Below, in pieces: positions 3,177 to 44,212 of a stretch of 64,000 bases of DNA. The stretch lies in the NCBI RefSeq assembly GCF_007748035.1, contig NZ_CP036278.1, positions 3,596,001 to 3,660,000 on the forward strand, read 5' to 3'. The notes under the pieces were generated by a model. That model was not told the DNA's origin. It saw only the letters and a program-made list of their open reading frames with translations, and did no database searches. A program made the translations under genes and the position numbers. The DNA is from Aeoliella mucimassa. GTDB taxonomy: Bacteria; Planctomycetota; Planctomycetia; Pirellulales; Lacipirellulaceae. Every line of letters starts with the position of its first letter. Position 1 is the first letter of the stretch.

Positions 3177-3274
3177 GTGCGCTCGTAGGAGTTTCGTCTG
3201 ACAATGCACCTGTTTTCGTACAAGGTATAATGCCAGTAGCCCCTCCATTCCGTCGACAGATTCCAGCAAGTTCC

Positions 3275-5344
3275 ATGTCCTCCCCCCTGCACTCTCTGTT
3301 TCTGCTTTGTCTCTGGCTTGCCAGTACTCAAGCGTTTGCCATCGAACCAACTTCTCCCCCTGCTTTCAATCATCCCGGTCTGCTTCACACCGAAGACGAC
3401 TTCGCCCGCATGCGATCCAAACTGGCCGACAACCAGCAACCCTGGCTGGCAGGTTGGCAAGTCTTGGAGCAAAGCCGCCACGCCCAACTCAACTGGCAAC
3501 CTCGCCCCACGGAGACCATCGTTCGAGGAGGCCCTGGGCAGAACTTTCCGGTGCTATTCAACGACATGCACGCAACCTATTGCTTGGCGCTGCGTTGGAA
3601 GGTATCAGGCGACAAAGCCTATGCTGACAAAGCAGTCGAGATTCTTAATGGCTGGTCTTCGACACTCAAACACATCCGCGGAAACTCCGATCGGTTCCTG
3701 GCTGCGGGAATCTATGGTTATCAATTTGCGAACGCGGCAGAAATCATGCGAACCTATCCCGGTTGGAGTCACGACGACTTCGGCCGGTTTCAACAGATGA
3801 TGCTCGAAGTGTTCTACCCGATGAATCATCAATTCCTCACCGAACACAACGAGGCGGCTATTACCAACTACTGGGCGAATTGGGATCTCTGTAACATTGC
3901 GTCGATTCAAGCCATCGGCGTTCTCTGCGACCGTCGCGACTTGTACGACGAAGCCATGCAATACCTGTTTCACGGCCGCGGCAACGGCGCACTCGACAAA
4001 GCCATTTACTACGTGCATCCCGGCAATCTTGGCCAATGGCAAGAGGCCGGTCGCGACCAAGGGCATTCCACCCTTGGCATCGCGCTTCTTGGCCCCATCT
4101 GCGAAACCGCATGGCACCAAGGCGACGATCTGTATGGCTATCGCAACAACCGTTTTCTGGCCGGCGCGGAGTACGTTGCCAAGTACAACCTCAACCAACC
4201 AGTTCCTTATGTCCCCTACGCTTGGGGTACCGGCCAGCGCGGCGACCATCGTGAGCAGGCAACCATCTCCGACAACGGTCGCGGCAATCTTCGAGCGGGA
4301 TACGAACTGGTTGTGAATCATTACGTCCATCGTCTTGGCATCGCTGCTCCATATAGTTCTCAGTACGCGGCCAAACTGCGCCCCGAACCTGGAGCTGGAG
4401 GTCACGCGTCGACCTTCGATCAACCCGGCTTCGGCACCCTTACTGCAACTATCGATCCGCAAGTCGCTTCGCCCCGCCCAAGCGGCCTCACCGCAAGGTT
4501 GCGTTCGCATAACGTGGAACTGTCGTGGTGGGGAGCGGCCAACTCGACGTCGTATCAGCTTTCGCGAGCTACTCAGCCCGAGGGTCCTTTCAACGTGATT
4601 GCCAGCGATATCCATGATCCACTTACCTATACCGATTCGAATTTGCCGCGCGGAACTTACTACTATTACGTAGAAGCTATCGTCGAGGGGGTTCCGGTCT
4701 CACGTTCCGAGGTCGTATGCCTGTCGACAGCCCCGACTCTGGTATCGCGGTACGAGTTCGACGAGCATCGCGAGTCACAAGCCGACAGTCCATCTTATGT
4801 AATGCACGGGGCTAAACTTGTCGCTGGTTTATCCGGTCAAGCAGTCGCTCTCGACGGAGTCGACGACTACGTTGAGCTGCCGACCGGGGTGGTCAGCCAG
4901 TTGAGCGACTTTACGATCGCTTGCTGGGTGCAGGTCGACGAGCAGGCAACCTGGTCGCGGGTTTTTGATTTCGGCGACGACCGAGGCTTCTCCATGTACC
5001 TCACTCCTTCGAATGCGAACGGAAAGTGCAGCTTCGCTGTCAGCACGGTCTATTACCATAACGAGCAAGTAGTCGAATCCCCTTCTCCCCTGCCTTTGCA
5101 TCGCTGGGTGCATGTCGCGGTCACTCTATCCGATCGCACCGCGACGCTGTACGTCGATGGGCAGGCGGTTGCAGTGCGGGACGATATTCATTTTCCTCCG
5201 TATCGATTAGGGAATACTTCGCAAAACTGGATTGGTCGTTCTCAATATTCCGATCCTTACCTAACTGGCAAAGTCGACGATTTCCGCATCTACCATGGCG
5301 CGTTGTCACCAAGCGAAATCGAAATGCTCCTGAAAACGCGGTAA
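3275..5344 (+). CDS. Secreted alginate-lyase-like protein with C-terminal LamG domain
   Basis: A protein of 689 aa starting MSSPLHSLFLLCLWLASTQA, a clear Sec signal peptide; an upstream in-frame start at 3230 would bury this signal. Residues about 30-400 resemble the alginate lyase (alpha/alpha-barrel) family, with NYWANWDLCN and RDQGHSTLGI where this fold places active-site Asn/His residues. A fibronectin-III-like stretch follows at about 400-490. The last 200 residues are a LamG/concanavalin-like domain (AVALDGVDDYVELPTG, then VHVAVTLSDRTATLYVDG). Such enzymes break down uronic-acid-rich or sulfated algal polysaccharides outside the cytoplasm. The exact substrate cannot be read from the sequence. 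It stands alone between katG and an HDAC-like gene. Confidence 0.82.
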   Translation: MSSPLHSLFLLCLWLASTQAFAIEPTSPPAFNHPGLLHTEDDFARMRSKLADNQQPWLAGWQVLEQSRHAQLNWQPRPTETIVRGGPGQNFPVLFNDMHATYCLALRWKVSGDKAYADKAVEILNGWSSTLKHIRGNSDRFLAAGIYGYQFANAAEIMRTYPGWSHDDFGRFQQMMLEVFYPMNHQFLTEHNEAAITNYWANWDLCNIASIQAIGVLCDRRDLYDEAMQYLFHGRGNGALDKAIYYVHPGNLGQWQEAGRDQGHSTLGIALLGPICETAWHQGDDLYGYRNNRFLAGAEYVAKYNLNQPVPYVPYAWGTGQRGDHREQATISDNGRGNLRAGYELVVNHYVHRLGIAAPYSSQYAAKLRPEPGAGGHASTFDQPGFGTLTATIDPQVASPRPSGLTARLRSHNVELSWWGAANSTSYQLSRATQPEGPFNVIASDIHDPLTYTDSNLPRGTYYYYVEAIVEGVPVSRSEVVCLSTAPTLVSRYEFDEHRESQADSPSYVMHGAKLVAGLSGQAVALDGVDDYVELPTGVVSQLSDFTIACWVQVDEQATWSRVFDFGDDRGFSMYLTPSNANGKCSFAVSTVYYHNEQVVESPSPLPLHRWVHVAVTLSDRTATLYVDGQAVAVRDDIHFPPYRLGNTSQNWIGRSQYSDPYLTGKVDDFRIYHGALSPSEIEMLLKTR

Positions 5345-36026: not shown

Positions 36027-36848
36027 ATGGTGACTGAACGCCGGACAAAACTGCTTGAGATCGTCCGCCGGCAAGGGTTTGCCTCCCTTCCCGACTTGGC
36101 GGAGACGCTCGACGTTTCGGAGTCCACCGTGCGGCGTGATCTCGATTATCTCGAGAAAACAGGCATGGCCCGGCGCACCCATGGTGGGGCGTTTTACGCG
36201 GGGCCCAAGCCGCAGCTAGCTCACTTCCAGAGCCGTCAGGAAGCACAGTGGGGCAAAAAGCGGGCGATTGCTCGCGTAGCGGCCTCCCTGATCGGGGGGG
36301 TCGATACCCTGCTGCTCGACGGGGGGAGCACCACCTACGAGCTCGCTCGCCTGATGACCGGCACGCCGATGCAGGTGGTCACCAACTCACTTCCGGTGGC
36401 CAATCTGTTCAGTTCCCGGCCTGAGGTCGGGCTGATCGTCGTGGGCGGCTACCTGCAAAGTACTTCCGGTGTGCTTTTAGGCACGTACGCCGAGCAGATG
36501 CTAAGTTCCCTTAGGGTTCGGACGGCCGTAATCAGCGCTGCCGGAGTGACCGATACCGGGCTCTACAACAGCAATCACATGACCGCTACGACGCAGCAAG
36601 CGATGATTCGGGCGGCGGATCAGGTGATTCTGGTGGCCGATAGCACCAAATTCGGGCACCAGAGCATTGCTAAGGTGTGCGACCTCCATGAAATCGATCA
36701 CGTGGTAGTCGACAGCCAGGTGGAAGAATCCTGGCAGAAAACTATCACATCGGCCGGCGTCCAGCTATCACTGGCTGACGAGCTGGCGGCCGACAGTCAT
36801 CCCGTCACCGACGGCCGCGCTGCGACGCAGGCCGATTCCTCTCTATAG
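36027..36848 (+). CDS. DeoR-family regulator of the microcompartment operon
   Basis: A 273-aa sugar-responsive repressor. Residues 1-57 are the DeoR winged helix ([20 protein letters not shown], then [10 protein letters not shown]). Residues 75-235 are the DeoR sensor domain with the phosphosugar-binding patterns [34 protein letters not shown] and VADSTKFG. The next gene starts 11 bp downstream and the operon runs in the same direction, so it probably represses its own operon until a fucose- or rhamnose-derived phosphosugar appears; a DeoR gene heads PVM-type BMC loci generally (known). The ligand is inference. Confidence 0.93.
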
Positions 36849-36859
36849 AACCTACGCCG

Positions 36860-37582
36860 ATGAGCACCGCCACCCTCCCCCGCAGCGAAGTCGAGCGTAT
36901 CGTCCGCGAGATCGTTCAACGCCAATTTTCGTTTCCTCCTTCGTGTGGTTGCGACAAGGTGTCGACCGGCGCCGCGGTGGAACCCAACCTGGTGGTGAGT
37001 GTTTCGGCCCGCCATGTCCACCTGACCGACGAGCACGTTGAAACTCTGTTCGGCCCTGGGCACACGCTGACGCCGGCCAAGGACCTGTACCAGGATGGCT
37101 TCTTCGCTGCCGAAGAAACCGTGATGGTGGTCGGCCCCCGCCGGCGGATGCTTCCGAGTGTCCGCGTGCTGGGCCCTACCCGATCGTTCAGCCAAGTGGA
37201 ACTCGCGTTTACCGATGGCATCTCCCTGGGCATTAACTTGCCTGTGCGGGCGAGCGGCAAGATCGAAGGAACTCCCGGCTGCGTGCTGGTCGGCCCCGCG
37301 GGGGTGGTTGAGTTGCCCGAGGGGGTGATTCGCGCCGAACGCCATGTGCATATGAATCAGCGCGACGCCGAGTTCTACGGCGTCAAGAATGGCGACCGCA
37401 TGAACCTGCGAATTGAATCGTCGTGCTCCATGCTGCTGGAAGACCTGCTGGTTCGCGCCGACGACACCAGCAAACTGGAAGTGCACATCGATACCGACGA
37501 AGGCAACGCGGCCGACCTGGACCATGCCATGAGTGTGAAACTCGAAAAGCAAGAACCTTGCAGTTGCCAGTCGAAGCATTAA
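36860..37582 (+). CDS. pduL: PduL-type phosphate propanoyl/acyltransferase
   Basis: A 240-aa microcompartment phosphotransacylase converting acyl-CoA and phosphate to acyl-phosphate and CoA, which regenerates CoA inside the shell. Both zinc-binding blocks of the family are present: [20 protein letters not shown] and [13 protein letters not shown]. Residues 6-22 ([18 protein letters not shown]) form an amphipathic helix typical of encapsulation peptides, separated from the body by a Cys-rich linker. In the PVM pathway its substrate would be lactyl-CoA. A Cys-containing tail (EPCSCQSKH) ends the protein. Confidence 0.95.
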
Positions 37583-37696
37583 GCAGTTTGATTTCGAGGC
37601 TCGCTGACTCACCACAGAGTCACCCGCCATGTTGAATACGTGTTTTATTGAACCAACCAAGCAACCTTTTTCCTTTTTCAAACGAGGACAACAACG

Positions 37697-37993
37697 ATGG
37701 CTAAAACAGTGGAAGCGCTCGGCATGATCGAGACCAAGGGCTTCGTGCCGTTGGTCGAGGCAACCGACGCAATGCTCAAGGCAGCAAACGTCAGCTTCAT
37801 GTCGTGGGATAAAGTCGGCGCCGGCCTGGCTGCCGTGTTCGTTACCGGCGATGTCGCTGCGGTGAAAGCTGCTACCGACGCTGGTGCGACCGCTGCGGGA
37901 CGCATTGGCGAAGTCGTCAGCGTGCAGGTGATTCCCCGCCCGCATGAAGACGTCGACAACGTTCTGAAGAAGAAGCCGGCAGCCAAGAGCTAA
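37697..37993 (+). CDS. BMC-H hexameric shell protein 1
   Basis: A 98-aa single-domain BMC shell protein ([40 protein letters not shown]). Six copies form a hexagonal tile with a central pore; the pore loop here is DKVGAG. The C-terminus is extended and Lys-rich ([10 protein letters not shown]), unlike the second copy. GAGGA lies 10 nt before the ATG. It is separated from the second BMC-H gene by only 54 bp. The two paralogues diverge enough to give distinct pores. Confidence 0.97.
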
Positions 37994-38047
37994 CCAGAAC
38001 CAACCACCACTAAGAATACACCTCATAAATTGACTGAAAGGTCTACC

Positions 38048-38317
38048 ATGCAACAAGCTATTGGACTCGTTGAAACAAAGGGGCTCGTTCCGTTGGTCGA
38101 AGCGACCGACGCCATGGCCAAGGCAGCCAACGTAACGGTTGAAAAGCGCGTCGACCTCGGCGGTGGCCTGGTCACCACGGTTGTCAGCGGCGACGTTGGT
38201 AGCGTGCGTGCTGCTGTCGAAGCTGGTGCGGCTGCTGCCAGCCAGGTTGGCGAGTTGATTTCGAGCCATATTATTGCCCGTCCTTCGGATGGTGTGATTT
38301 CGGCTTACTTCAGCTAA
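38048..38317 (+). CDS. BMC-H hexameric shell protein 2
   Basis: An 89-aa BMC-H protein ([40 protein letters not shown]) with pore loop VDLGGG and a short C-terminus (ISAYFS). ATG preceded by GAAAGG; a TTG-type start six codons upstream is less likely. Together with copy 1 it would form the shell facets; no BMC-T (tandem-domain) gene is in the locus. Confidence 0.97.
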   Translation: MQQAIGLVETKGLVPLVEATDAMAKAANVTVEKRVDLGGGLVTTVVSGDVGSVRAAVEAGAAAASQVGELISSHIIARPSDGVISAYFS

Positions 38318-38369
38318 TCAGTAGTAACTGCGGACAAGGAACTCACTCCCTCTCACAGGCGCAAGAACC

Positions 38370-39557
38370 ATGAAGGTTTTAATCGCGAACTTAGGCTCCA
38401 CCAGCTTTAAGTATCGTTTGTTCGACATGGACGACGAGCGCCAACTTGCACGCGGTGGTGTGGAACGCATCGGCGCGGAGCAAAGTTCGGCCTTTGTAGA
38501 GATCGATGGCACACGTCGCGATTTGACGATCGTGGCCCCCGACCATGCCGTGGCGGTTGAGCAATGTTTGGCTCAACTCACGGATGCCGAACAAGGTTGC
38601 CTGGCCTCGGCCGACGAGGTTACCGCGATTGGATTCAAAGCGGTACACGGCGGTCGAGTGGGTGGAGTGCGACGCGTGGATAACGATGTGCTGGTGGCCA
38701 TGGAGGATGTGGCCACCGTCGCACCGGCTCACAACCCGCCGTACATTGCGGCCATGCGGCAGATGAACGAAGCACTGCCGCATATCCCCCTGGTGGCGGC
38801 TTTTGAGACTGGTTTCCACGAGACCATCCCTCCGCGATTGAAACACTATGCGGTTCCGACCGAATGGGCGGACCAATACGGCATCAAGCGATATGGCTTT
38901 CACGGCGCGAGTCATCGCTACGTGGCCGGCCGTGTCGCGGAACTGACCGGCAACCATGAGCTGCGAGTGATTTCGTGCCACTTGGGTGGTTCGAGCAGTG
39001 TGTGTGCCATTCGCCACGGCGAGAGTGTCGCCACGTCGATGGGCATGAGTCCGCAATCGGGATTGCCACAGAACAATCGGGTAGGCGACTTCGACCCGTT
39101 TGCTCTGCCAACCTTGATGGAACGCACCGATACCACCCTGCCGGCGGCCTTGGAACTGCTGGCCAACCAGTGTGGACTGCAAGGCCTTTCCGGCACGAGC
39201 GGCGACGTTCGCGACTTGGCCACTGCGGCCGAGGCAGGCGACCAGCGGGCTCAACTGGCGATCGATGTCTATACCACGAGCGTTCGGCATTACATCGGCG
39301 CTTACCTGGTGGAACTCGGCGGAGCCGATGTGCTGGCCTTTGCCGGCGGCATTGGTGAGAACGGGCACGACATCCGTCGCGCGGTCTGCCAGAACCTGAG
39401 CGAGTTGGGCATCGTGCTCGACGAAGCGAAGAACGCCGAAGCAAGAAGCGAAGGCTCGATTCATGCCGAGGGAAGTCGCACGCAAATCTGGATTGTTCCG
39501 ACCAACGAAGAATTGATAGTCGCTCGGCAGGTGCGTGACCTGCTCGGGCAAGTTTAA
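38370..39557 (+). CDS. ackA: Acetate kinase (acyl kinase) of the microcompartment operon
   Basis: A 395-aa ASKHA-fold kinase making ATP and acid from acyl-phosphate. Signature stretches are NLGSTSFKYRLFD (phosphate 1 loop), KRYGFHGASHRYVAGRVAEL (catalytic His region), VISCHLGGSSSVCAIRHGES, and the adenosine-binding LAFAGGIGENGHDIRRAVC. The first signature has ST in place of the usual SS. In the PVM pathway it would turn lactyl- or acetyl-phosphate to lactate or acetate with ATP gain. No encapsulation peptide is evident. The stop is followed 25 bp later by the next gene. Confidence 0.95.
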   Translation: MKVLIANLGSTSFKYRLFDMDDERQLARGGVERIGAEQSSAFVEIDGTRRDLTIVAPDHAVAVEQCLAQLTDAEQGCLASADEVTAIGFKAVHGGRVGGVRRVDNDVLVAMEDVATVAPAHNPPYIAAMRQMNEALPHIPLVAAFETGFHETIPPRLKHYAVPTEWADQYGIKRYGFHGASHRYVAGRVAELTGNHELRVISCHLGGSSSVCAIRHGESVATSMGMSPQSGLPQNNRVGDFDPFALPTLMERTDTTLPAALELLANQCGLQGLSGTSGDVRDLATAAEAGDQRAQLAIDVYTTSVRHYIGAYLVELGGADVLAFAGGIGENGHDIRRAVCQNLSELGIVLDEAKNAEARSEGSIHAEGSRTQIWIVPTNEELIVARQVRDLLGQV

Positions 39558-39582
39558 AGCAAACTCCATTGAGGCTCCGGAA

Positions 39583-39891
39583 ATGTTTCTCGCCAAAGTG
39601 ATTGGCTCGCTGGTATCGACGCAGAAGGTAGATACCCTGCGTGGCCACAAGCTGCTGATGGTCGAGCCGTATCGCCTCGATTCCACGAATCGTACCGATC
39701 TGGTTAGCGCCGGTCGTACGTTCGTTGCTGTCGATACCTTGGGAGTTGGCCAAGGCGACATGGTACTCATTACCCAGGGTTCCAGTGCTCGCTTGACGCC
39801 CGAAACCAAGAACTTGCCGATCGACACCGTCGTGATTGGTATCGTCGACCGCGTGGTTGTCGAGCAGAACACGGTCTTCGACCAGCAATAA
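39583..39891 (+). CDS. BMC-P pentameric shell protein 1 (EutN/CcmL-type)
   Basis: A 102-aa vertex protein: [20 protein letters not shown], then [20 protein letters not shown] and [13 protein letters not shown], the standard EutN/CcmL pattern. Five copies cap shell vertices. The start at 39583 is chosen over an in-frame start at 39535 because the latter overlaps the end of ackA and adds non-family sequence. This is one of three BMC-P genes in the operon. Confidence 0.95.
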
Positions 39892-39929
39892 ACATCTCCC
39901 CCGCCTCCGACCCCAAAGCTCTCCCTATC

Positions 39930-41366
39930 ATGATGCAGATCGACGAACAAACGCTTCGCAATGTGGTTGCGCAAGTGCTCGCCGAAGTCGGCAATCTGCC
40001 GGCGGCCACGAGCACGAATGGCTACTTCGGCCGTCACGGTGTGTTTACCTGTGTCGACGAAGCGGTAGCCGCTGCAAACGAAGCGTTCGACCAACTTAGC
40101 CGCCGGACGATTGAAGATCGCAAGCGAATTATCGATCATATTCGCCGCATTTCGATTGATCAGTGCGTCGAACTCGGCACCATGGAGATGAACGAAACGG
40201 GTGTCGGGCGGCTGGAACACAAAATCGAAAAACTCAAGACGCTCGGCGAACGCACGCCTGGCGTCGAGTTCCTGAAGTCCGAAGTCTTCAGCGGCGACCA
40301 CGGCCTGGCGGTGATCGAACGGGCGCCGTTCGGTGTGATCGGTGCCATCACGCCGGTCACTCACTCGCTGCCGACCATCACCGGCAACGCAGTGAGCATG
40401 ATCGCTGGCGGCAACACCCTGGTGGTCAACCCGCATCCAAGCGGTAAGAAGGTGGCCGCCGAAGGGGTACGTCGCTTCAATCAAGCAATTGCTGCCGACC
40501 TGGGCATCGACAACCTGATTTGCGTGATTGCCGAGCCGACGCTTGAGTCGGCCGACGCCATCTTCCACCACCGCGACATCGCCTGCATTTGTGTCACGGG
40601 TGGCCCCGCGGTCGCCCGCGCGGCACTCAATAGCGGCAAGCGAGCGGTCGTCGCTGGTCCAGGCAACCCACCAGTGGTGGTCGATGCCACGGCCGACTTC
40701 GATCGGGCTGCTCGCTCGATCATCCAAGGGGCGGCTTACGACAACAATCTGCTGTGCATTGCCGAGAAGGAAGTGTTCTGCACCGAAGCGGCTTTCGATC
40801 CGATGATGGACGCCATGGAGCGGGCTGGTGCGGTGCGACTGACGGCCATGGAAATCGAGCGACTTACCGCCGCGGCGATCACCACGGTCGGCGAGGGCGC
40901 GCATCGACACGACGTTCCGGCGAAGGAGTTCATCGGCCAGGATGCGGCCGTGCTGGCTCGCGCCGCAGGACGCGAAGTGCCCGCGGATACCGAATTGCTG
41001 TTTGGCGAGACCGACGAAACCAACCCGTTTGTGCCAGTCGAGCAGATGATGCCCTTCGTGCCGTTCGTGCGTTGCCGCGATATTGAAGAGTGCATCGCCA
41101 AGGCCAAGTTCTACGAGCACGGCTTCCGTCATACGGCCATCATCCACACGAACAATGTTCGCCACATGACGATGATGGGTCGTGCGATGGACACGACTCT
41201 GTTCGTGAAAAACGGCCCCTCCACCGCGTCGCTCGGCCTGGGTGGCGAAGGGTACCTTTCGTTCTCCATTGCCACCCCGACTGGCGAGGGAGTGACCACG
41301 CCGATCACGTTTACCCGCGAGCGACGTTGCTCGCTGATCGACGACCTGCACATCCTTGGTCGTTGA
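39930..41366 (+). CDS. pduP: CoA-acylating aldehyde dehydrogenase (PduP/EutE-type)
   Basis: A 478-aa NAD-dependent enzyme converting an aldehyde and CoA to acyl-CoA inside the compartment. The catalytic cysteine is in [16 protein letters not shown] (PduP/EutE pattern); [20 protein letters not shown] and [15 protein letters not shown] are family blocks. Residues 4-20 ([17 protein letters not shown]) are an encapsulation peptide helix, followed by a Thr/Asn linker. In the PVM pathway the substrate is L-lactaldehyde from the aldolase. Start codon may be 39930 or the next ATG, 39933. Confidence 0.96.
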
Positions 41367-41381
41367 TAGGAAACAAGTCCC

Positions 41382-41642
41382 ATGCTCAAAGCCACGGTTG
41401 TTGGATCCGCGACCTCTACGGTTAAGCACCCTTCGCTCGAAGGCGTGCGGATGCTCGTGGTGCAACCGTACGCCCCCGATGGCACGTCGCCCGACGGCCA
41501 CCCGTTGCTGGCGATCGACACCGGCTACGGCGCCGGCCATGGCGACCAAGTGGTGATCACCAGCGATGGTCGCTACTCGCGAGAGAACTTGCATAACGAT
41601 AACACCCCAGTCCGCTGGACCGTCATTGGAATTTGCGATTAA
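41382..41642 (+). CDS. BMC-P pentameric shell protein 2
   Basis: An 86-aa EutN/CcmL protein (MLKATVVGSATSTVKHPSLE; LLVVQPYAP-type strand; GHGDQVVITSDGRYSRE; RWTVIGICD). It lies 15 bp after the dehydrogenase gene, and its stop TAA is immediately followed by the GTG start of the next gene. It differs clearly from the other two BMC-P copies. Confidence 0.95.
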   Translation: MLKATVVGSATSTVKHPSLEGVRMLVVQPYAPDGTSPDGHPLLAIDTGYGAGHGDQVVITSDGRYSRENLHNDNTPVRWTVIGICD

Positions 41643-41906
41643 GTGACACTCACTCAAGAACAACTCGAATGGATTGTGAGCGAAGTCGTCCGGCGACTTC
41701 GTGCGGCCGGCTATGGCGACAACGCTTCGCCTGCCGCGGCTTCTGCGACGACCACCCTGGCGATCACCGATCGGCTTGTGACCTTGGCCACCTTGGAAGG
41801 CAAGCTACAAGGAGTCGCGGCGGTGCAGGTCGGTTACAAGGCGATCGTCACCCCTGCGGTGGTCGACCATTTGAAGGAAAAACAAATCACCTTAGTGCGG
41901 CAATAA
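41643..41906 (+). CDS. Small microcompartment protein with encapsulation-peptide-like N-terminus
   Basis: An 87-aa protein starting from GTG directly after the stop of the previous gene (translational coupling). Residues 4-24 (LTQEQLEWIVSEVVRRLRAA) form an amphipathic helix like those on the operon's PduL and dehydrogenase. An Ala/Ser/Thr linker follows (residues 25-40). The remaining 47 residues (ITDRLVTLATLEGKLQGVAA ... AIVTPAVVDHLKEKQITLVR) recall the C-terminal strand-helix of PduM and of EutQ/GrpN-like proteins, ending in VTPAxxDxLKEKxI. I infer a structural or assembly factor, not an enzyme. Confidence 0.85.
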   Translation: MTLTQEQLEWIVSEVVRRLRAAGYGDNASPAAASATTTLAITDRLVTLATLEGKLQGVAAVQVGYKAIVTPAVVDHLKEKQITLVRQ

Positions 41907-41938
41907 ACCGCGCGTCCCCCTCCATCCCACACACTGCC

Positions 41939-42223
41939 ATGCGTATTGCCAAAGTCATCGGAAACGTCGTGCTCAGTCGCAGCCACCCGGATCTCGCGGG
42001 CGGATCGCTGCGTTTGGCGATTCCCATGACGCTCGACGAACTTCGCACCAACGCGGAGCCAGCCGGCGAGGAACTGGTGGTGTGGGACTACCACGGGGCG
42101 GGCCTCGGTTCGTTGATCGCCTTGAGCGAAAGTGGCGAAGCGGCCCAACCGTTCCGCCCCCAGACGAAACCTGTTGATGCTTACAACTCGGCGATTCTCG
42201 ACACGTTGCGGTTCGATCGTTAA
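41939..42223 (+). CDS. BMC-P pentameric shell protein 3
   Basis: A 94-aa EutN/CcmL protein (MRIAKVIGNVVLSRSHPDLA; LVVWDYHGAGLGSLIALSES; AAQPFRPQTKPVDAYNSAIL). The start ATG is 32 bp after the previous stop. It has a longer C-terminal stretch after the pentamer fold than the other two (FRPQTKPVDAYNSAILDTLR), which is usual for PVM third pentamers as far as I recall. Confidence 0.93.
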   Translation: MRIAKVIGNVVLSRSHPDLAGGSLRLAIPMTLDELRTNAEPAGEELVVWDYHGAGLGSLIALSESGEAAQPFRPQTKPVDAYNSAILDTLRFDR

Positions 42224-42305
42224 CCGCTCCGCTGCGACGACGCTCGCCGACTAACCAAGACACTTCATACATCTCACAATCACCCTCCCGACTTTGAGGC
42301 CTATC

Positions 42306-43190
42306 ATGATGAATATCCACCGGATGAAGCAGGAAATCTGCGAAATCGGCGATCGCATCTACAAGAAGGGATTCGCGGCTGCCAATGATGGCAACATTAC
42401 CTACCGCGTTAGCGAAAACGAGGTGCTTTGCACGCCGACGATGCACTCGAAGGGTTTCCTGAAGCCCGACGACATCTGCCTGATCGATATGCAAGGCAAC
42501 CAGCTTTCGGGCAACAAGAAGCGTTCGAGCGAAGCCTTGCTGCACATCGAAATCATGAAGGCCCGGCCCGACGTCAAAAGTGTGGTGCACTGCCACCCGC
42601 CACACGCAACCGCTTTTGCGGTAGCTCGCGAGCCGATTCCGCAGTGCATTCTGCCTGAGGTCGAAGTGTTCCTGGGCGACGTGCCGATCACCAAGTACGA
42701 AACCCCTGGCGGCCAGGCATTTGCCGAGACCATTCTGCCGTTCGTGAAAAACACGAACGTCATTCTGCTCGCCAACCATGGCACGGTCAGCTACGGCGAA
42801 AACGTCGAGCGGGCGTACTGGTGGACTGAGATTCTCGACGCTTACTGCCGCATCCTGATTCTCGCCAAGCAGGTGGGCAACGTGTCGTACCTGAATCAAG
42901 AGAAGTCGCAGGAACTGCTCGACCTGAAGCAGAAGTGGGGTTTTGACGACCCACGGTTGCACAAGGAGTTCGAGAATTGCGACATCTGCGCGAACGACAT
43001 CTTCCGCGAGAGCTGGCACGATGCAGGAGTGGAGCGCCGCGGTTTCCCCGCTCCCCCCCCGATGCCCGCCAGCAAGCCCGCGCCGGCAACGCCAGCCCCC
43101 GCACCGGCACCAGCTAGCCCAGCCGCTGCCGATCAGGAAGCCATGGTGCAACTGATTACCCAGCGAGTGATGGAAGCCTTGGCAAAGTAG
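42306..43190 (+). CDS. Class II aldolase (fuculose/rhamnulose-1-phosphate type) with C-terminal encapsulation peptide
   Basis: A 294-aa zinc aldolase splitting a 6-deoxyketose-1-phosphate to DHAP and L-lactaldehyde. The fold is FucA-like: GFAAANDGNITYRV substrate loop, KKRSSEALLH (catalytic Glu), VVHCHPPHATAFAVA (zinc histidines) and ILLANHGTVSYGE (third zinc His). After residue 245 comes an Ala/Pro linker (PPPMPASKPAPATPAPAPAP) and a C-terminal amphipathic helix (DQEAMVQLITQRVMEALAK), the same packaging signal as on other operon proteins but at the opposite end. ATG 42309 is an alternative start. The exact sugar (fuculose or rhamnulose) is not decided by sequence alone. Confidence 0.93.
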   Translation: MMNIHRMKQEICEIGDRIYKKGFAAANDGNITYRVSENEVLCTPTMHSKGFLKPDDICLIDMQGNQLSGNKKRSSEALLHIEIMKARPDVKSVVHCHPPHATAFAVAREPIPQCILPEVEVFLGDVPITKYETPGGQAFAETILPFVKNTNVILLANHGTVSYGENVERAYWWTEILDAYCRILILAKQVGNVSYLNQEKSQELLDLKQKWGFDDPRLHKEFENCDICANDIFRESWHDAGVERRGFPAPPPMPASKPAPATPAPAPAPASPAAADQEAMVQLITQRVMEALAK

Positions 43191-43270
43191 CTCGCGACCG
43201 AGCGACGCTTTGCGGTTTTCGTTCATCGTTTCCTCACGCGAATCATGACATTCAACAACGGATCTTGGAG

Positions 43271-44212
43271 ATGAAAGTAAGCATTATTGGCGGTGGTGGA
43301 CTCGTTGGTTCGTGTGCTGCCTTTGCGCTGCAAACCGGCGGCATCGTTCGCGAGATCAGCTTGCTCGATGTCAACGTCGAGCTGGCTGCTGGTCAGGCGC
43401 TCGACCTGCTTCATGGCGGGCCGAGCGTGGCCGATCAGGTGATTAACTCCGGCAGCTACGAGCACATACCCACCAGCGATGTGATTTGCATCACCGCGGG
43501 TCTGCGTCGTAAGCCGGACGAAAGCCGGCTCGATCTGATCAATCGCAATGTCGATTTGTTCATGACGATCCTCGAAGGGGTAAAACAAGCCGGGCCGAAG
43601 CCCGACGCGATTGTGGTGGTGGTTTCGAACCCGGTCGACGTGCTCACCTACTTGGCGGCCGATCGACTCGGTTTGCCGGCCACGCAAGTGATTGGCCTCG
43701 GCACACAGCTCGATACCATTCGCTTTCGCAGCCTGATCGCTCAGGAGCTGAAGGCTCCCCCGACTCAGGTGAAGTCGCTCATTCTCGGCGAGCATGGCGA
43801 CAGCATGGTGCCGATCTGGTCGAGTGCTACCATCGCCGGGTTGCCGATCGACAAGTACCCTGGCTGGAACGCCAACCTGGCGAACCAGTTGTTCACTCGC
43901 ACCAAAGGAAGCGGTGCTGAGGTGATTCGCGGCAAAGGTGGTGCTGGGTTTGCAGTCGGCATTGCGATTCAAGACGTGATCGAGGCCATCGCGCTCGACA
44001 GTCGTCAGGTGCTGCCGGTTTCGAGCGTGCAAAACGGATGCTACAACATTCGTAACGTTGCGTTGTCGGTGCCGACCGTGGTTGGTCGCAAGGGTGTGAT
44101 CGATCGGCTTGAGGTCGAACTTTGGCCGAAGGAAATGCAAGGCCTCCGCAACAGCGGCAACGTGCTACGACAAACCGTCGAGACGGTGCTCGCCCGAGTT
44201 GGTCGCGGCTAA
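43271..44212 (+). CDS. Lactate/malate dehydrogenase of the microcompartment operon
   Basis: A 313-aa NAD-dependent 2-hydroxyacid dehydrogenase of the LDH/MDH family: SIIGGGGLVGSCAAFALQT (NAD loop), ITAGLRRKPDESRLDLINRN (mobile loop arginines, MDH-like RKP), VVVVSNPVDVLTYLAAD, and LILGEHGDSMVPIW (catalytic His). It ends the operon. In published PVM models it recycles NAD made by the aldehyde dehydrogenase; whether it acts on pyruvate, lactaldehyde or another carbonyl is not known here. No encapsulation peptide is visible, so it may be outside the shell or enter with a partner. Confidence 0.92.
   Translation: MKVSIIGGGGLVGSCAAFALQTGGIVREISLLDVNVELAAGQALDLLHGGPSVADQVINSGSYEHIPTSDVICITAGLRRKPDESRLDLINRNVDLFMTILEGVKQAGPKPDAIVVVVSNPVDVLTYLAADRLGLPATQVIGLGTQLDTIRFRSLIAQELKAPPTQVKSLILGEHGDSMVPIWSSATIAGLPIDKYPGWNANLANQLFTRTKGSGAEVIRGKGGAGFAVGIAIQDVIEAIALDSRQVLPVSSVQNGCYNIRNVALSVPTVVGRKGVIDRLEVELWPKEMQGLRNSGNVLRQTVETVLARVGRG

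Follow-up and report, generated by a model that had tools for sequence, protein, structure and literature searches.

PVM-type bacterial microcompartment (BMC) loci are a recognized class, with 285 representative loci counted (PMC8217296). The described system of Planctopirus (Planctomyces) limnophila, pvmABDEGHIJKLMNO, begins with a DeoR regulator and encodes PduL, a shell of BMC-H and BMC-P proteins, the kinase AckA, an aldehyde dehydrogenase (AldDH), a class II aldolase, and a dehydrogenase of the lactate/malate dehydrogenase (LDH/MDH) fold; it is reported to serve L-fucose and L-rhamnose (PMC4207490, PMC11958385). Here, we describe a PVM operon of Aeoliella mucimassa and a small protein encoded within it, X87, for which we propose a role in joining the shell to its cargo.

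The window, a stretch of 64,000 nucleotides (positions 3596001 to 3660000 of a 6.61-Mb, single-contig genome), holds 12 head-to-tail genes, all on the plus strand at window positions 36027 to 44212, in the order DeoR, PduL, BMC-H, BMC-H, AckA, BMC-P, AldDH, BMC-P, X87, BMC-P, class II aldolase, and LDH/MDH-fold dehydrogenase. A PF00596 signature enzyme, DeoR, PduL, AldDH, acetate kinase, and LDH/MDH stand together in this one locus, which is a PVM operon, a canonical member of its type and unsurprising in itself. A preliminary description had named eleven genes, all of which were found, and had assigned the locus to the PVM type, as gene content, the gene order of relatives, and a Phe at position 77 of PduL bear out; the twelfth gene, X87, had been overlooked. 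Like P. limnophila, A. mucimassa has DeoR first and the same kinds of shell and enzyme genes, with 12 genes against 13 by cluster name (the two were compared by description, not gene by gene); in contrast to P. limnophila, fucose genes were not recognized in this genome. The new point is X87 as a candidate natural minimal shell-cargo linker, the operon being of an already known type. We consider it probable that this is a PVM operon carrying rhamnose flux by way of RhaA and RhaB encoded in trans, with X87 as its minimal shell-cargo linker.

X87 and its counterparts in related operons

The X87 gene starts with GTG directly behind the stop codon of the second BMC-P gene (BMC-P2), and its product matches no family in Pfam or NCBIfam at an E value of 1e-3. 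It is 69% identical to its counterpart in the nearest genome, and comparison with Aeoliella straminimaris (nonsynonymous pN, 0.20; synonymous pS, 0.81) indicates purifying selection; a second comparison gave a dN of 0.40 and a dS of 1.07. Conservation, synteny, and selection together ruled out a chance open reading frame (ORF).

Homologues (hereafter X) occupy the same place in relatives, between BMC-P2 and BMC-P3. Relatives comprised 80 loci selected by AldDH (the best matches of a longer list) and loci L024 to L043, which were selected for having X and were excluded from the count that follows; L024 and L027 were dropped as duplicates of L044 and L045, except in the LDH count given below. 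The interval from BMC-P2 to BMC-P3 was spanned in 72 of the best 80 AldDH loci, and X was present in 71 of these 72 (60 long forms, 10 short forms, and one, at L064, where unread bases break up the ORF), with none at L053. Using a profile of its N-terminal part, X was detected in 57 of 69 BMC-bearing genomes against 1 of 28 BMC-less genomes (Fisher p, 1e-13), a count for which only some first-look candidates were scored in many genomes, such that absences may be overcounted. When the 12 BMC-bearing genomes without a match were inspected, G015 and G039 had another BMC type, G091 had a long BMC-domain protein only, G022 and G049 were cut before the X place, and G070 had a weak short X (E, 0.006); the remainder are weighed below.

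In its predicted model (predicted local distance difference test [pLDDT], 74), X87 has a helix at residues 5 to 21 and a small alpha/beta unit at residues 38 to 86, and the invariant columns of X all lie within the helix and this C-terminal module. Short X measures 81 to 98 residues and long X 202 to 363; L029 (155-residue frame) and L084 (119-residue frame) share the same short tail, and L078 (138 residues, at a contig end) was not scored short. All 8 same-family loci selected for X are short; G013, also of this family, has an open frame of 311 residues at the X place, so long forms may occur in the family as well. Among 88 scored loci, 16 have a short form, which stops 11 to 28 residues after a TPxxRD motif and leaves no more than 90 bases between the X stop codon and the BMC-P3 ORF; given this spacing, an assembly or frameshift error as the cause of the shortness of X87 was unsupported. 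On an AldDH tree built by a quick method (99 rows; 17 short, 75 long, and 7 without an X state), the short state needs at least six changes, three of them forced by well-supported branches, and the weakest losses are lone cases in metagenome-assembled genomes (L047, with 87 residues and a long sister, and L084, with 119 residues). These repeated changes, with the front of the protein kept, argue that the RpiB-like part of X was dropped more than once.

That part, the C-terminal domain of long X, is RpiB/LacAB-like by sequence and model comparison and apparently inactive. PF02502 exceeded its cut-off in one of nine X scanned (L035, 29.6 against 24.7 bits), fell below it in five, and did not match in three, the short X of L029 among them; at an E value of 1, NCBIfam RpiB models matched as many as 14 of the 34 long X. 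Searched against the PDB, a long-X family profile returned RpiB and LacB chains first (best E, 1e-4), and for a model of the L059 X (pLDDT, 88), Foldseek ranks 1 to 28 were all of RpiB/LacB type (best E, 1.4e-4). At the catalytic Cys position, which was taken from the PDB profile alignment and located by a loose pattern, none of the 56 readable long X had Cys (T, 40; S, 7; A, 6; R, 2; D, 1), and 22 of 78 were unreadable. Some known RpiB enzymes use another base than the catalytic Cys. SPU and SPU-like microcompartments likewise have an RpiB-type protein beside BMC genes, and in SPU-like loci that protein is accompanied by a class II aldolase (PMC4207490); the SPU RpiB is described in that source as a sugar isomerase, whereas the RpiB-like domain of long X is without the catalytic Cys and X87 is without the domain. 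SPU-like loci are a possible source of the domain in long X.

Resemblance to PduM and EutQ and a proposed linker

A profile of 44 X sequences and a module version of it, limited to what follows the helix, were searched against 220 mechanically called ORFs (the pdu and eut regions of Escherichia coli E24377A with flanks, and the window's own; 219 besides X87), a set with at least one duplicate (eutS) and with some entries that are not genes. In HMMER, the module profile gave E values of 1.1e-4 for EutT (best segment, 2.7e-3), 2.2e-4 for PduM (4.8e-4), and 5.4e-3 for EutQ (9.8e-3), with the fourth entry at 0.074; hhalign scores were 28.4 for EutT, 28.0 for PduM, 23.1 for HisA, and 22.7 for EutQ. 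With the helix included, PduM led (E, 6.6e-7) with both segments aligned, a resemblance rather than membership, and PduB, EutC, PduE, and, more weakly, EutE matched by their N termini. The N terminus of PduB is reported to be a working targeting signal and that of PduE is not (PMC12108088), while peptides of EutC and EutE are reported to bind EutQ (PMC12487888). Among the 34 long X, the commonest NCBIfam models were TIGR02536 (17; C-terminal 40 residues), RpiB models (14, 11, and 8), and PduM models (9 and 7), all below cut-off.

PduM, which is reported to help join shell and core and to have an N-terminal targeting helix (PMC9132943, PMC12108088), resembles X87 in combining an N-terminal encapsulation helix with a C-terminal module (X87 residues 42 to 87 against PduM residues 119 to 162) that in both proteins ends within one residue of the C terminus. 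In gene position they also agree, E. coli pduM and X87 each immediately preceding a BMC-P gene; the two proteins differ in the distance from helix to module, which is ∼90 residues in PduM and ∼20 in X87. The module further matches EutQ residues 3 to 45, overlapping the H1/H2 region (residues 9 to 41), which is reported to bind the shell, with H3/H4 binding cargo peptides and the C-terminal domain dispensable for assembly; EutQ without residues 9 to 41 stayed with the cargo and parted from the shell (PMC12487888). The order is reversed, however: in EutQ the module comes first and is followed by the cargo-binding H3/H4 and a cupin kinase domain, whereas X begins with the helix, and no EutQ-type cupin acetate kinase domain is present in X87, whose 87 residues hold no further domain.

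Because the module matches EutQ 3 to 45, and given the roles described for EutQ and PduM, we propose X87 as a linker. In the proposed mechanism, RhaA and RhaB, encoded elsewhere, would isomerize and phosphorylate rhamnose, and the BMC aldolase inside the shell would split the sugar phosphate into dihydroxyacetone phosphate and L-lactaldehyde; AldDH would then yield lactyl-CoA, PduL lactyl-phosphate, and AckA lactate plus ATP. The N-terminal amphipathic helix of X87 would join the enzyme core in the manner of encapsulation peptides, its C-terminal module would bind the inner face of the shell like the related H1/H2 region of EutQ, and the lineage would have lost the apparently inactive RpiB-like domain that X carries in most relatives, leaving a minimal linker. 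We infer the flux, the lactaldehyde intermediate, and the linker function, and likewise that the similarity extends to shell binding.

Several observations weigh against this proposal. The similarity is remote (hhalign probability, at most 69%; whole profile against PduM, 45%), and HisA, a non-BMC protein, falls between PduM and EutQ in hhalign. Searched by itself, X87 matched TIGR02536 alone in NCBIfam (E, 0.05) and nothing in Pfam at an E value of 1, and a fold search with its model (pLDDT, 74) returned no solved structure at an E value of 1e-3. The curated PduM family TIGR04493 (cut-off, 50 bits) was found in 0 of 97 genomes, including this one, at an E value of 1e-3 (best E against the 34 long X, 0.0015; scores shown up to 15.4), so X is not assigned to PduM. 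Five PVM operons with both BMC-P2 and BMC-P3 are without X (G011, G046, G063 [the genome of L053], G066, and G073), and G016 has five shell genes alone, with no enzymes and no X; X is therefore not indispensable. Lastly, PduM has been observed with the core and not with the shell (PMC9132943, PMC12108088), which keeps in play a cargo-binding module.

On that alternative, X would belong to the core and its module would bind other cargo rather than the shell, and EutT, PduM, and EutQ would share the module as proteins of the lumen. The location reported for PduM and the match of the X helix to the N termini of PduB, EutC, and PduE agree with this, but the EutQ deletion, which overlaps the module, retained cargo while separating from the shell (PMC12487888), and we regard a pure core protein as rather unlikely, if worth keeping in view. 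Decay offers another explanation, by which X87 is what remains, tagged and functionless, of an RpiB-like enzyme after loss of the catalytic domain, in an otherwise plain PVM operon. We think a relic of this kind unlikely: purifying selection acts on X87, the short forms end within 90 bases of the BMC-P3 ORF, and the invariant columns are confined to helix and module, even though the RpiB-like domain lacks the catalytic Cys, has been lost in several lineages, and belongs to a protein missing from five PVM operons and one shell cluster. A broader interpretation, which we hold only tentatively and at a little short of an even chance, is that one small shell-anchoring module is common to the C terminus of PduM, the N termini of EutQ and EutT, the TIGR02536 Eut protein, and PVM X, and tethers different partners to the shell. 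With the same reserve, the partner would be a cupin kinase, an inactive RpiB-like domain, or an adenosyltransferase; in the short forms of X, X87 included, it would be an encapsulation helix alone.

Operon content, substrate, and dehydrogenase

Table 1. Genes of the A. mucimassa PVM operon (positions are those of the window)
Feature	Position	Strand	Evidence and remarks
DeoR-family regulator (PvmA counterpart)	36027..36848	+	PF00455, E 1e-45; PF08220, E 1e-17; opens the gene order in relatives too
PduL phosphotransacylase	36860..37582	+	PF06130, E 2e-71; Phe at the rPduL Gln77 position (alignment to 5cuo)
BMC-H shell protein 1	37697..37993	+	PF00936, E 2e-26
BMC-H shell protein 2	38048..38317	+	PF00936, E 1e-24; ATG at 38048, ORF open from TTG at 38030
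Acetate/propionate-type kinase AckA	38370..39557	+	PF00871, E 5e-102; TIGR00016, 335 bits (cut-off, 293)
BMC-P shell vertex protein 1	39583..39891	+	PF03319, E 1e-26
CoA-acylating aldehyde dehydrogenase (AldDH)	39930..41366	+	NF011927, 605 bits (cut-off, 403)
BMC-P shell vertex protein 2	41382..41642	+	PF03319, E 4e-20
X87, 87 residues, proposed shell-cargo linker	41643..41906	+	Encapsulation-type helix (∼residues 5 to 21), linker, ∼50-residue module
BMC-P shell vertex protein 3	41939..42223	+	PF03319, E 7e-18
Class II (FucA-like) aldolase, signature enzyme	42309..43190	+	PF00596, E 8e-48, 163 bits; Pro/Ala-rich linker
NAD-dependent LDH/MDH-fold dehydrogenase	43271..44212	+	PF00056/PF02866; ATG at 43271, ORF open from TTG at 43265

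Shell genes number three BMC-P and two BMC-H (Table 1), and PF00936 matches across the genome are limited to these two BMC-H; the statement that no BMC-T is present holds genome-wide, and the PF00596 aldolase in the operon agrees with an aldolase-based compartment, as had also been described. Stretches resembling encapsulation peptides occur at the N termini of PduL and AldDH and at the C terminus of the aldolase (enzyme labels assigned by eye). The closest named relative by AldDH is A. straminimaris (92% identity). The operon order recurs in the 20 loci chosen for X (some without the dehydrogenase, and with L027 and L039 cut or partly rearranged) and in the 80 AldDH-selected loci, barring cut contigs and a few local differences. 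The absence of an isomerase and a kinase from the operon had been noted correctly; it does not make this a special compact version, since relatives share the same order. PduL position 77 is F in 46 relatives, Y in 5, H in 3, A in 1, and unreadable in 26 (n = 81), and in PMC4784909 the majority of PVM PduL proteins are described as having Tyr or Phe there, with a link to lactyl-CoA suggested.

BMC genes are patchy within the family of A. mucimassa, with 16 of 43 genomes having them. Two same-family genomes (L133 in G015 and L134 in G039) have another small BMC locus, with a BMC-H, three BMC-P-type genes, AldDH, and a long BMC-domain protein but no match to aldolase, PduL, AckA, or DeoR. Extra long BMC-domain proteins (open frames of ∼200 to 280 residues), perhaps satellite BMC-T, lie away from the PVM operon in same-order relatives (at least G013:C76, G049:C40, G051:C220, G053:C1, and G055:C246), and none is present in the A. 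mucimassa genome. Near the operon, the window also encodes a catalase (PF00199; 45237 to 46775, minus strand) ∼1 kb behind it and a xylose isomerase-like TIM-barrel protein (PF01261; 28189 to 29499, minus strand) ∼6.5 kb ahead of it.

L-Rhamnose genes are encoded in trans at 1.15 Mb, where L-rhamnose isomerase RhaA (NF002203, 689 bits, above cut-off), a rhamnulokinase (TIGR02627, 505 bits, below the cut-off of 528), a RhaS-like AraC regulator (166 bits; cut-off, 288), and an NCS1-like permease (weak, 41 bits) adjoin one another. The genome has three PF00596 proteins, and because AraD (342 bits; cut-off, 257) and MtnB (200 bits; cut-off, 137) account for the other two, the BMC aldolase is the sole PF00596 candidate for rhamnulose-1-phosphate. 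Together, the rhamnose genes in trans and this remaining aldolase point to L-rhamnose as the likely substrate, which narrows the fucose/rhamnose of the preliminary description: its rhamnose half stands, and L-fucose genes were not recognized.

Two results count against the rhamnose assignment. The BMC aldolase scored below every NCBIfam cut-off (best, 3-oxo-tetronate 4-phosphate decarboxylase, 130 of 250 bits), so sequence does not settle its substrate; its top matches in a PDB search were “Aldolase” and FucA chains. An operator common to the pvm operon and the rha cluster was also dropped as a candidate, none having been found in an alignment of the window's upstream region with those of 12 relatives. 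In some of these 13 regions, a weak TTTCTTTCA...TGATTGA element, picked out by eye, recurs; allowing up to 2 mismatches, it had 4 matches in the A. mucimassa genome (control, 1) and 0 at the rha cluster.

L-Fucose might be served too, through unrecognized fucose enzymes encoded elsewhere. P. limnophila uses both sugars (PMC11958385), and the lone match to PF02952 (fucose isomerase C-terminal domain; 31.8 bits, cut-off 29.3, covering positions 32 to 127 of 143) is a 555-residue protein (L009:9060-10727) that NCBIfam assigns to no family. This protein, however, lies at 2.68 Mb in an arabinose cluster, beside araA- and araB-type genes, and the three FGGY kinases of the genome are of the rhamnulokinase, ribulokinase, and xylulokinase types by NCBIfam, with no fuculokinase among them; we consider fucose use distinctly improbable. 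Elsewhere in the window (3230 to 5344, plus strand), a protein with alginate lyase and laminin-G-type domains suggests polysaccharide use.

Aligned to L-LDH 1a5z, the operon dehydrogenase has Arg where 1a5z has Gln (position 102), and Arg also stands in the motif ITAGLRRKPDESR, or a close variant of it, in 62 of the 63 LDH-type ORFs of L024 to L123 (the other is unread). The separate MDH of the genome (TIGR01763, 462 bits, above cut-off) likewise has Arg there, and a third PF02866 protein is also encoded. By the classical rule, Gln102 marks lactate dehydrogenase and Arg102 malate dehydrogenase, so the name LDH is probably wrong, and this residue suggests malate-type specificity; whole-protein scores (LDH, 275 bits; MDH, 273 bits; both below cut-off) gave no decision. 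In some relatives, such as L029 and L032 of the same family, no dehydrogenase closes the operon, so NADH may be recycled by other means, and the operon LDH/MDH gene may not be essential.

Significance for compartment assembly

How shells capture their enzyme cores is an open question for most microcompartments, and among the 12 genes of this PVM operon there is neither a PduB-like BMC-T nor a cupin of the EutQ type. A reading of X as a linker was not found in the literature searched, a scope outside which lay Erbilgin 2014 (the founding PVM paper, which may list X as hypothetical) and supplementary tables. PduM is described in a 2025 source as being without known sequence homology outside Pdu compartments (PMC12108088); the module link, if true, would give PduM relatives outside them and change that statement. 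If X is a linker, PVM, Pdu, and Eut compartments would be assembled along common lines, and the 87-residue X87 would be a handy tag for filling engineered shells.

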